A stretch of DNA of 32,885 nucleotides from positions 1 through 32,885 of the forward strand of contig JAQTZZ010000047.1 in NCBI GenBank assembly GCA_028687545.1, in the 5' to 3' direction. Under the pieces are notes generated by a model. The model made no database searches, was not told the DNA's origin, and was given only the letters and a program-made list of their open reading frames with translations. The translations under genes and the position numbers were made by a program. How positions within the stretch are numbered: position 1 is the first letter of the stretch; every line of letters starts with the position of its first letter. Source of the stretch: Candidatus Wallbacteria bacterium (GTDB taxonomy: Bacteria; Muiribacteriota; JAQTZZ01). This document shows, piece after piece, positions 2,935 through 18,995 of this stretch.

Positions 2935-9753
<6,819 letters not shown>

Positions 9754-9772
9754 ACTTTAAACAGTTACAAAT

Positions 9773-9805
9773 AAAAATCCCCCTCATCTGAGGGGGATTT
9801 TTTTT
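9773..9805. terminator. Bidirectional intrinsic terminator between rpoC and the MBL gene
   Basis: A 13-bp stem pairs AAAAATCCCCCTC (9773-9785) with GAGGGGGATTTTT (9790-9802) across the loop ATCT, followed by further T residues. The A-tract on the 5' side gives a U-tract on the minus strand, so it can end both rpoBC transcription and the convergent hydrolase gene. Confidence 0.93.
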
Positions 9806-16167: not shown

Positions 16168-17040
16168 TTATAAATCTTTCAATAACTTGGAAATCACTGT
16201 GATGTCCTTCCAGCCAAAAAAGATCCGGGTCAGAATCATTCCGCCAAAATCCTCTTCATCACAGCAGATCACTTCGCCTTTTAAGGATTCATAGAACTTC
16301 ACTGCCGGAAGATTATCCTTAAGCGCCCATAACATGAAGGACTTGTACCCTTTTTCTTTCATCCATTTGAGCATTTTCCTGCTCAGGGCCTTGCCGATGC
16401 CAAGCCCTTGATAATCCTTCAGGATATAAAGTCCGTACACTTCGACATCCAGATCGGATCTGATCGAAAAAGGCGCGCCGCATGAAATGTAGCCGACTAT
16501 TTTATCGTTCATGATGCAGACGTGGAAAAATTTCCGCTCGTCTGTTTTGCCTGACTCAAGGCCCTTCCTGAATATTTTTTCGAAGGCATCGGCGTTGAGC
16601 TTATCCAGAAATTCCTGAGGGAGAATTCCTTTATAGGTGGAGTGGAAAATGGTGACATGAATCCTGGCGATTTCCAAGGAATCAGCCTCAACAGCGGGTC
16701 TGAGAGAATATTTCGCCGTTAAGACTTTTTTGATGCTTTCCTGAAGCGGAGTAAGATCTCGCTCGATGATTTCCCAGATCCTTTGTAAATTTATGCCGAG
16801 ATAATCATGAACTATTACATTCCTGAACCCGGAAATCGCTTTCCAGGGTATTTCCGGATATTGCTCTTTGAAATCCTGCGACAATTTTTGACATGATTCC
16901 GACAGTTCGTGCAGTTCCCGCAGTGCAGCTTTCCAGGTTTTGCGGTCATTCATGAAATTATCTCTGCCGTCTGATGCGTAACTTTTCAGCGCAGTGCTGC
17001 AATCGAGCATGTGGCTGAGAAACAGCAGATCGTCTTTCAT
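16168..17040 (-). CDS. HepT-like HEPN toxin fused to a GNAT acetyltransferase
   Basis: 290 residues, two domains. Residues 1-107 are a complete HepT (DUF86) HEPN RNase domain with the catalytic motif Rx4HxY: Arg73, His78, Tyr80 (FRNVIVHDYLG). Residues about 111-265 are a complete GNAT domain: beta-1 start YSLRPAVEADSLEIARIH, acetyl-CoA loop YQGLGIGKAL (Gln211-Gly216), and NLPAVKFYESL near the end. In known MntA-HepT modules the nucleotidyltransferase adenylylates the Tyr of Rx4HxY and so silences HepT. The start ATG overlaps the stop of the mntA-like gene (ATGA), so translation is coupled. The fusion is a single uninterrupted frame. GNAT enzymes include tRNA-acetylating toxins and antibiotic-modifying enzymes; the substrate here cannot be told, and it may be an accessory or second toxic activity. 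Confidence 0.85.
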   Translation of the reverse strand: MKDDLLFLSHMLDCSTALKSYASDGRDNFMNDRKTWKAALRELHELSESCQKLSQDFKEQYPEIPWKAISGFRNVIVHDYLGINLQRIWEIIERDLTPLQESIKKVLTAKYSLRPAVEADSLEIARIHVTIFHSTYKGILPQEFLDKLNADAFEKIFRKGLESGKTDERKFFHVCIMNDKIVGYISCGAPFSIRSDLDVEVYGLYILKDYQGLGIGKALSRKMLKWMKEKGYKSFMLWALKDNLPAVKFYESLKGEVICCDEEDFGGMILTRIFFGWKDITVISKLLKDL

Positions 17041-17324
17041 ATGTCTATGGCTTCGCTGAAAACATGATCCCGCAACGATAATTTGATCGCTGCTGCTTCC
17101 ACTACATCCACCGGATGTCCCAGCAGTTCCTGCAGATCATAGACCAGGCCGCCCGGGAACCATGGAGTGGTCGGACCCTGGATTTCGATCAGAAAATCAA
17201 TGTCACTTTTTTCGGTCGCCTCTCCGCGGGCAAAGGACCCGAAAAGCTTGATCTTTCCCACCCCGTGTTTGCGGGCGATTTCCAGGATTTCTTTTCTTTT
17301 TTTATGGATTTCGGCTATTCCCAT
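17037..17324 (-). CDS. mntA: MntA-like minimal nucleotidyltransferase antitoxin
   Basis: 95 residues. The motif GSx10DxD is complete: GSFARGEATEKSDIDF, Gly29-Ser30 with Asp41 and Asp43, and a third acidic residue in HPVDVVEA (Asp73). It belongs to the minimal nucleotidyltransferases that pair with HEPN proteins; characterised members transfer AMP to the HepT tyrosine and thereby act as antitoxin. It is the first gene of the pair and overlaps the HepT-GNAT gene by 4 bp. The RBS is weak (AATAAG before ATG). An 11-bp palindrome GCATATTATGC (17347-17357) sits just upstream and could be an autoregulatory site, which is only a suggestion. Confidence 0.88.
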   Translation of the reverse strand: MGIAEIHKKRKEILEIARKHGVGKIKLFGSFARGEATEKSDIDFLIEIQGPTTPWFPGGLVYDLQELLGHPVDVVEAAAIKLSLRDHVFSEAIDI

Positions 17325-17420: not shown

Positions 17421-17449
17421 TTGACGATCAGATTGTAATTACTTATGAT
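17421..17449 (+). promoter_or_regulatory. Sigma-70-type promoter of the sigma-54 activator gene
   Basis: TTGACG (17421-17426), 17-bp spacer, TATGAT (17444-17449): five of six matches in each hexamer. The predicted transcription start, about 17456, falls at the first base pairs of the heptad palindrome, which puts that palindrome in the mRNA leader. Confidence 0.7.
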
Positions 17450-17450
17450 A

Positions 17451-17519
17451 GTGAATAGTGATCAGTAAATGGTGAATAGAGTTTCAATTTCCAATCACTA
17501 ATCACCATTCACTATTCAC
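17451..17519. repeat. Palindrome made of degenerate 7-bp tandem repeats (GTGAATA type)
   Basis: The left arm reads as heptads GTGAATA, GTGATCA, GTAAATG, GTGAATA; the right arm, on the opposite strand, reads GTGAATA, GTGAATG, GTGATTA, GTGATTG. GTGAATAGTGA (17451-17461) pairs perfectly with 17509-17519, ATGGTGA (17469-17475) with 17502-17508, and TAG (17477-17479) with 17498-17500. The unpaired 7 nt on the left equals one heptad. As RNA it would be a hairpin of about 21 bp ending 12 bases before the RBS CGGAGGA of the activator gene. Confidence 0.8.
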
Positions 17520-17540
17520 TTCCCGTCCACCGGAGGAATC

Positions 17541-18995
17541 ATGAAACACCATAAAATAGCCTTTACTTTTGTGGGGCTGGAGGCTGCTGTTGCCTCGGCT
17601 TTGTTTCTGCGTCAGAATCCCGAGACTGAGCTGGTCGTCACCAGCGCCGAGAAGTTTCCGGAGAGGCTTGACGAGTTCTCAGACCGGAAAAACCAGGATT
17701 TTTTCATCATCGGCCTGGGCTACCGCGACCGCGAGGAAGAGATGGAAAAAGCGCTGAGATCAATTTTGAAATCAGGTAATAAAGTGACCTGGTTCTGCAC
17801 AGCCCTTGATTTAGCGTATTTCAAAAAACAGTTCAAGGACAAGATCGAATTTCTCACCGGGAAAACCGAACTTTCCCTGCTGATTGCAGGCTGGCTGGGT
17901 TTGAAAAACGATAAGAGCCCTTTGCGGCATCTTGATCACAGGCATTCGGCTGAGGACTGGGAAAATCTGGTGCGTTACGGACTTTCCCGCGCCAAGAATT
18001 TCCGCGATTATGAGATGTATCCAGAGATCGTGCAGAAACTGGCCGGATTGAAATCATTGAGTGCTGAAGATGAACTGCGGATGAAAACTTCAGACCCGTA
18101 TGGCCTATTGATGGGAAATTCCAGCCTGATGAAGGAACTGAGAAATCGGATCAGACTGGTGGGAGGAGACAGCATCTGCAGCGTGCTGATCCTGGGCGAA
18201 ACCGGCACGGGCAAGGAAACAGCCGCCAGAGCCCTGCATGATGCGAGCAGACGGGCGAACCAGGAATTCGTGGCCATCAACTGCGCGAATTTTACGGAGC
18301 AGCTCTTAGACAGCGAACTGTTCGGCTACGTGAAAGGCGCATTCACCGGAGCTGAACACGAACGGAAGGGTCTTCTGGAAGTTGCGGACAAAGGCACCCT
18401 GTTCCTGGACGAGATCGGCGAGATGCCGTTGTTATTACAATCCAAGCTCCTGCGCTTCCTTGACAACAAGGCTTTCCGGCGCGTGGGAGGGACCTCGGAC
18501 ATCAGGGTGGATGTGCGCATCATCGCTGCCACCAACAGGGACCTGCAGACCCTGATCAGCAGAAACGGCTTCAGGGCGGATCTATACTACAGGCTGGCCC
18601 AGGCCGAGATTCATACCCCGGCTCTGCGCGAACATCCTGATGATCTGGGCGTGATAGCTGATCATTTGTTGAAAAAACTTTGTCTGGAACGCAAAATTGA
18701 TTCTGTCAAACTCACCCCGCGACAACTTGAGCAGCTGAAGAAGCACCGCTGGCCTGGCAATGTGCGGGAGCTGACCAATGCTCTTCTTACGGCCCTGATC
18801 AGCGGGGAATGGGATTTCGAGAAAATATTACTTCCAATTGGGTCTCAAGAAGACGATTTCACGGTCTGGCCTTTAGCTGATTATGAACACGAGTATGTGG
18901 AAAAGGTTTACTCGAAATTCGGCTGCAACAAGACACAGTCAGCAAAAGCGCTGGGGATCGCGGTGAATACGCTGAAGAAAATATTAGGTATATAA
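17541..18995 (+). CDS. Sigma-54-dependent transcriptional activator with unusual N-terminal domain
   Basis: 484 residues. The AAA+ domain covers about 190-425: Walker A GETGTGKE (219-226), the sigma-54-contacting loop GAFTGA (266-271), Walker B LFLDEIGE (Asp290-Glu291), and RWPGNVREL. A Fis-type helix-turn-helix closes the protein (CNKTQSAKALGIAVNTLKKI). It hydrolyses ATP to open sigma-54 promoters, so the genome should encode RpoN. The sensory domain (1-180) is not a response-regulator receiver, GAF, PAS or V4R domain by eye. Its pattern, GLEAAVASALFLRQ, DFFIIGLGYRDREEEMEKAL, GNKVTWFCTALDLAYF, resembles the DHH phosphoesterase layout with the catalytic Asp/His replaced; this is a tentative match. 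RBS GGAGGA precedes the ATG. Its targets are unknown; one candidate site is at 25153. Confidence 0.92.
   Translation: MKHHKIAFTFVGLEAAVASALFLRQNPETELVVTSAEKFPERLDEFSDRKNQDFFIIGLGYRDREEEMEKALRSILKSGNKVTWFCTALDLAYFKKQFKDKIEFLTGKTELSLLIAGWLGLKNDKSPLRHLDHRHSAEDWENLVRYGLSRAKNFRDYEMYPEIVQKLAGLKSLSAEDELRMKTSDPYGLLMGNSSLMKELRNRIRLVGGDSICSVLILGETGTGKETAARALHDASRRANQEFVAINCANFTEQLLDSELFGYVKGAFTGAEHERKGLLEVADKGTLFLDEIGEMPLLLQSKLLRFLDNKAFRRVGGTSDIRVDVRIIAATNRDLQTLISRNGFRADLYYRLAQAEIHTPALREHPDDLGVIADHLLKKLCLERKIDSVKLTPRQLEQLKKHRWPGNVRELTNALLTALISGEWDFEKILLPIGSQEDDFTVWPLADYEHEYVEKVYSKFGCNKTQSAKALGIAVNTLKKILGI

Follow-up and report, generated by a model that had tools for sequence, protein, structure and literature searches.

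Palindromic heptad arrays upstream of a sigma-54 activator gene in a Candidatus Wallbacteria genome are probably one copy of a dispersed, convergent repeat

A long palindrome lies upstream of a sigma-54 activator gene in the window analyzed here, which comprises the 32,885 nucleotides of contig JAQTZZ010000047.1 of a Candidatus Wallbacteria bacterium (assembly GCA_028687545.1), and its position raises the question of whether it serves that gene. An initial annotation of the letters had proposed that it forms the 5' leader of the activator transcript and could regulate translation, protect the RNA, or be a mobile intergenic repeat. The locus contains the following features, with coordinates given within the window.

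16168 to 17040, minus strand: gene with HepT-like and GNAT domains, next after the nucleotidyltransferase gene (domain search)
17037 to 17324, minus strand: nucleotidyltransferase gene (NTP_transf_2), the divergent neighbor (open reading frame and domain search)
17421 to 17449, plus strand: promoter-like site TTGACG-17-TATGAT, 10/12, outside the repeat family (promoter scan)
17450 to 17480, plus strand: left arm, four RGTRANN heptads with GTRA on the plus strand (letters, repeat search, and folds)
17462 to 17468, in the left arm: bulge of one heptad (seven bases), seen in both RNA and DNA folds
17478 to 17492, no strand: core between both arrays, AGAGTTTCAATTTCC (array reading)
17490 to 17520, minus strand: right arm, four heptads with GTRA on the minus strand (letters, repeat search, and array reading)
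17532 to 17536, plus strand: GGAGG, the activator's ribosome-binding site, not within the arms (letters)
17541 to 18995, plus strand: sigma-54 activator gene, 484 amino acids, with Sigma54_activat at residues 190 to 357 (open reading frame and domain search)

Reading of the window letters confirmed the palindrome at positions 17450 to 17520, and the repeat search gave arms of 31 nt each that are 74% complementary without gaps. The left arm is composed of the heptads AGTGAAT, AGTGATC, AGTAAAT, and GGTGAAT, and the right arm of AATCACT, AATCACC, ATTCACT, and ATTCACT; four degenerate heptads per arm in opposite orientation, as initially described, are therefore present. The RNA fold of positions 17445 to 17560 has an energy of −28.2 kcal/mol versus −17.2 ± 3.2 kcal/mol for shuffled sequences (z = −3.5, with 1 of 200 shuffles equal), and the DNA fold of positions 17446 to 17524 gives a z of −5.7, with 0 of 200 shuffles equal. 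The bulge of one heptad that had been noted in the initial annotation appears in both folds.

The near-consensus promoter that was described next to the left arm is present. Transcription usually starts 6 to 8 nt past the −10 box, and a start at that distance would fall within the first heptad and not at the first paired base, where it had been placed. The scanned 1 kb contains two promoter-like sites versus 1.2 ± 1.0 in shuffled sequences, which is no clear excess. The hairpin had also been described as ending near the ribosome-binding site; GGAGG does lie downstream, but it sits beyond the arms. Since the nucleotidyltransferase gene is on the minus strand and the activator gene on the plus strand, the gap that holds the palindrome lies between divergent genes. 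About 185 N-terminal residues of the activator have no Pfam match, and a paralogue with 48% identity is found in the same genome (C5:66644-68050); one scan of the genome contigs for activators found two distant ones. On the other side of the gap, the single reading frame at 16168 to 17040 holds a HepT-like ribonuclease domain (residues 11 to 106) and a GNAT acetyltransferase domain (residues 165 to 252). The nucleotidyltransferase, judged by its place beside this HepT-like gene, is MntA-like, and the two genes possibly represent a fused variant of the HepT-MntA pair.

The genome of the window (G000; 4.54 Mb in 108 contigs, 97% complete) contains further arrays of the GTGAATA type. The exact pattern GTGAATAGTGA occurs 30 times versus 2 for the reversed pattern, and a looser pattern of two heptads occurs 180 times versus 36 for a reversed control that is contaminated, as AGTGA reads the same both ways. 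In 20 stretches of this genome that were read in addition to the window, and counting the window copy, there are 15 two-armed elements of RGTGAWT heptads, plus several one-armed arrays. In each element, two tandem arrays of RGTRANN face each other across a core of approximately 7 to 45 bases, mostly 12 to 24. Over its full length, the window copy is matched best by C25:23313-23396, at 81%. Left arms hold from 2 to 11 heptads, so that the number of heptads does vary between copies, as the bulge had been taken to hint. Among neighboring arrays within 100 bases of each other, 15 pairs are convergent (plus, then minus) and none is divergent, with three in the order plus-plus and one minus-minus. 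As a control check, the G000 loci in reversed form gave nine pairs in the other order among arrays of two heptads.

The cores of these elements are related. Two copies share an identical 20-mer over the core and the arm edge, and a third carries it with three mismatches. The trimmed cores of 14 elements are more similar to each other than dinucleotide shuffles are (511 versus 463 ± 11, with 0 of 300 as high); when L066, one of the identical pair, is left out, the values are 426.5 versus 398 ± 9, with 1 of 300 as high. These sequences indicate that at least two copies descend from a common element, with modest support for the others. Dispersal within the genome rests on core similarity, which is modest except for one pair.

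The gene context of the 15 elements, from mechanical reading-frame calls, is divergent in four, tandem in four, convergent in three, and unresolved on one side in four. By the same calls all 15 are situated at gene edges, and a predicted frame contains one of the one-armed arrays. These data bear directly on the proposal that the palindrome is a cis-regulatory leader hairpin of the activator, acting on translation or mRNA stability. Its placement between the promoter-like site and the ribosome-binding site and its stable RNA fold are what such a hairpin would present, and the outermost pairs of the fold join positions 17445 to 17449, which a transcript from the promoter-like site would lack, to the region of the start codon. 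Fourteen further sites nevertheless carry the same element, with neighboring genes in every orientation, and a good promoter-like site adjoins only the window copy among the 15, with a weak one at one other copy (L080). The activator's closest homologues, which come from two other genera (G001 of the same family, 49%; G002 of the same phylum, 41%, with one in-frame stop), have no arrays upstream, and isolated heptads only are found at these loci. The two arms of one element are less similar (0.592) than arms of different elements (0.644 ± 0.020), and the consensus fold of 12 copies shows no gain from covariation (+1.01 kcal/mol), with double changes in 3 of 16 pairs. The Rfam search returned two matches, neither above chance and both far under the gathering scores (best E value, 0.63). 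A dedicated leader regulator was rejected by the comparison of homologues, the comparison of arms, and the gene context, and the regulation of activator translation that the initial annotation had suggested is very unlikely. Because the same element stands at many unrelated genes, the palindrome is probably not a switch made for this gene but a copy of a widespread repeat. Among 14 two-armed copies, the DNA fold reaches a z of −4 or below in 12 (the other two are L061, with −1.3, and L066, with −2.1), and with such strong folds a structural role is possible.

The repeat is not confined to this genome. Pairs of GTGAWTR heptads occur in 17 of the 36 genomes of the phylum that were searched and are strongly represented in G001 (16 versus 1 for the control) and G002 (45 versus 0), whereas in G025 and G030 control matches are as many or more. 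Arrays of four GTRA heptads number 303 versus 18 for the reversed pattern in G001 and 153 versus 13 in G002, and they are absent from most other genomes. The reversed pattern exceeds the heptad pattern in five genomes (G004, G008, G010, G013, and G035), and in G004 and G035 this excess is due to other heptad families. In G035 the arrays consist of another heptad, AATGATG, with 50 matches of four heptads. Among array pairs within 150 bases in 20 contigs of G001, 11 are convergent and 4 divergent, or 8 and 2 after removal of shared flanks. All four divergent pairs are in one locus (L200, G001:C124, positions 3270 to 9782), where 8 or 22 bases separate the arrays of a pair; all four seem to be copies of a single unit that has GTAACGG-type heptads. 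The arrays of G002 are mostly one-sided, with neighbors in the order plus-plus (eight), minus-minus (five), and plus-minus (two).

Viral contigs carry the repeat as well. The IMG/VR database contains 55 stretches of three and a half GTGAATR heptads versus 9 of the reversed pattern, and the neighboring pairs at 20 loci, with shared-flank pairs removed, comprise 29 convergent, 1 divergent, 2 plus-plus, and 1 minus-minus. The sole divergent pair is the junction of two adjoining convergent elements. One viral contig of 19.7 kb (IMGVR_UViG_3300035696_000263; L169 and L178) presents 12 convergent pairs of GTRANNN heptads, mostly between predicted genes, and many of them begin at the stop codon of the preceding gene. 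A plasmid search by BLAST with the low-complexity filter on returned four records. From these tallies, the convergent rule holds strongly in G000 and among the viral contigs and less so in G001, and G002 does not show it.

Conservation within the unit was counted in 456 heptads, themselves unconstrained, each with two GTRA heptads before it and one after it; they come from four sets, in which near-identical contigs may count more than once. Four positions are kept in 97 to 99% of cases (G1 in 452, T2 in 443, A or G at position 3 in 448, and A4 in 450). Position 6 is variable, and in G001 it is nearly uniform, with 29 C, 24 T, 21 G, and 21 A. Plain slippage followed by drift would not give such a pattern, so that RGTRA is seen either by selection or by the process that generates the arrays. 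The strong conservation of GTRA amid variable positions exceeds what neutral slippage would leave, and this hints at recognition.

The kept positions also spell stop codons, since TRA every seven bases closes all reading frames, and arrays in convergent order would do so from both sides as a bidirectional three-frame stop cassette. The convergent order (15:0 in G000 and 29:1 in the viral set) and the purine at position 3 in 448 of 456 heptads are in line with this explanation, as is the position of gene ends. In the viral contigs, related ones included, a frame of at least 100 codons ends between −60 and +40 bases on the GTRA side in 126 of 191 arrays, versus 868 of 6000 random positions in viral and G000 loci, and in 13, 15, and 8 of these 126 arrays it ends at the first, second, and third heptad, respectively. 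For 124 single arrays from the four sets, the stop lies outside the array on the GTRA side in 49 and on the other side in 23 (binomial test, 0.0015), a bias that is partly mechanical and that in G000 alone is 1 versus 2. It is partly mechanical because GTRA arrays stop every frame that enters them, whereas reading frames on the opposite strand often run through them (35 cases). Against a stop cassette, G1 is conserved (452 of 456) as much as the stop itself, and the stop triplets are TGA in 348 and TAA in 86 but TAG in only 1 of the 456 heptads. The arrays of G002, being mostly one-sided, do not fit it either, and the GGGAATC repeats of Xanthomonas are likewise convergent in the accessible part of their description (PMC4692102), though by a reading of the letters their tandem unit contains no stop. 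The conservation of G1 and the near absence of TAG led to the rejection of this explanation, which is extremely improbable.

The description of the palindrome as a mobile intergenic repeat stands as far as other copies in the genome are concerned, but signs of transposition are lacking: target duplications are not in excess, and the locus of the Y1 transposase contains no arrays. A non-autonomous element of REPIN or MITE type, moved in trans by a transposase, would account for copies that are dispersed, palindromic, and related in their cores. However, the mean longest string shared by the two edges of G000 elements is 4.07 versus 3.93 after permutation, with 325 of 1000 permutations as high, and matches between element loci cover the arms and core only. 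The edges read AGTG or GGTG at one end and CACT or CACC at the other, with no GTAG or CGTC tag. The 3.3-kb locus of the single Y1_Tnp gene of G000 contains no array, the nearest being approximately 6 kb away. Relatives provided five additional Y1 loci, four without an array and one (L221) with a single match of two heptads, and G006 has six Y1 hits and no arrays. A REPIN driven by a RAYT was rejected, as no association between Y1 transposases and arrays was found.

Facing heptads can ride in a MITE, as seen in G004, of a related genus, although the family of the window gives no sign of it. In G004, one array of 25 bases recurs exactly at 28 of 62 matches; it lies within a MITE of approximately 205 bases (L229 to L248) that has inverted ends starting with GGCTCTT and also contains a facing array of a different heptad. 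Of its 20 loci looked at, both ends were recognized in 8, two of which have odd right ends, and exact duplications of 8 bases flank 3 of the 8. The ends and the length of the duplication presumably resemble those of ISL3. Among six genomes, matches to ISL3-type transposases are found only in G004, and the ends of the MITE were not found beside them; G000 has no such transposase, nor does G010, which carries the repeat of G004. A MITE was rejected for G000 given the lack of an ISL3 transposase and of a duplication signal, and movement of the window's family by a transposase in trans is unlikely. A separate repeated unit of approximately 300 bases in G001 (L096, L099, L106, and L107) holds facing heptads upstream of an apparent start of a signal-peptide gene. 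Because the left part of this unit resembles the beginning of such a gene, it was set aside as a mobile element; a gene duplicated together with the region upstream of it is the more likely reading.

The palindrome most likely belongs to a heptad repeat that is dispersed, intergenic, and convergent, and it is probably a bystander to the activator. Its arrays would grow and shrink by whole heptads, whole elements may occasionally reach other intergenic sites, and selection would confine them to the gaps between genes. The copy at the activator gene may be part of the 5' untranslated region and form a hairpin once transcribed, without being a dedicated switch. The hairpin of the window is therefore a caution against reading such a structure as a riboregulator of the activator. 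A wider reading, which we regard as doubtful, is that convergent RGTRANN arrays are a sequence-recognized element and not slippage debris, with a protein or nucleic-acid machine that reads RGTRA every seven bases, and that facing arrays at gene edges follow a general plan for which different lineages and phages use different heptads. The heptads used in this way are RGTRANN in the present family and its viral relatives, GGGANTN in Xanthomonas according to the accessible part of PMC4692102, and AGTG facing an AGTT type in the MITE of G004. That the arrays of G002 are one-sided speaks against full generality and slightly lowers the odds of this wider reading. The window's genome, its relatives, and the viral contigs are the sets where recognition, mobility, and slippage can be told apart.

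A literature search, with most subscription journals outside its reach, found no prior description of convergent GTRA arrays and only a GTGATTA heptanucleotide of Helicobacter pylori, cited in the accessible part of PMC4692102. For the systems compared here, the comparison extends to the accessible parts of the reports. A survey of 7006 genomes (PMC6344855) ranks tandem heptamers first in abundance among intergenic tandem repeats and offers no clue to their function; they are intergenic like those described here, and a convergent layout is not mentioned in the part of the survey at hand. The TAACTGA repeats of marine Beggiatoaceae (PMC4679880) likewise form numerous heptad arrays between genes and occur in distant lineages too, but they are direct repeats with one inverted case, lie mostly just upstream of start codons, and have a single conserved unit. 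Geobacter metallireducens carries, at many sites, families of tandem heptads in sets of four (GGACCGG) or five (MTYCTGA) (PMC2700814), which differ in their units and, for the GGACCGG family, in also lying within genes. REP and REPIN sequences with their RAYTs (PMC3733652) are dispersed intergenic palindromes, as here, but they have GTAG or CGTC tags and stems of 5 to 13 bp, and the GTAG type often stands beside RAYT genes, none of which was met here. The extended start-associated sequences of cluster K mycobacteriophages (PMC3203893) are inverted repeats in gaps before phage genes, like the viral relatives here, but consist of 17-bp non-tandem half sites linked to a 13-bp motif, with no heptads.

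The closest likeness is to the GGGAATC, or (GGGANTN)n, repeats of Xanthomonas (PMC4692102), which have a period of seven with the first four positions conserved and are dispersed, mostly intergenic, and near open reading frames. Their array pairs are convergent, with 70 and 75 cases, and their function is unexplained in the accessible part of that paper, whose authors weighed quadruplexes, found no role in gene regulation, and saw few inverted pairs in Nostoc. Both families share a unit of seven with positions 1 to 4 kept and the others variable, convergent pairs, and dispersed placement at gene edges. The Xanthomonas unit lies on the coding strand downstream of a gene or on the non-coding strand upstream, and the stop counts that bear on this point here are the partly mechanical 49 versus 23 given above, with 1 versus 2 in G000 alone. 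Here, unlike there, no avoidance of divergent gaps was seen in the 11 of 15 copies with resolved context. The unit length, convergent pairing, and gene-edge placement match although the sequence differs, and the family is accordingly placed in the Xanthomonas-type class, where the convergent GTRA heptads can be filed as a new sequence in a known, unexplained class of repeats. Unlike GGGANTN, the RGTRANN unit has no G tracts and hence no quadruplex, so the convergent layout does not need quadruplexes. That the layout of the Xanthomonas repeats recurs with a unit free of G tracts, both in another phylum-level set and among viral contigs, sets this layout apart from the quadruplex explanation.
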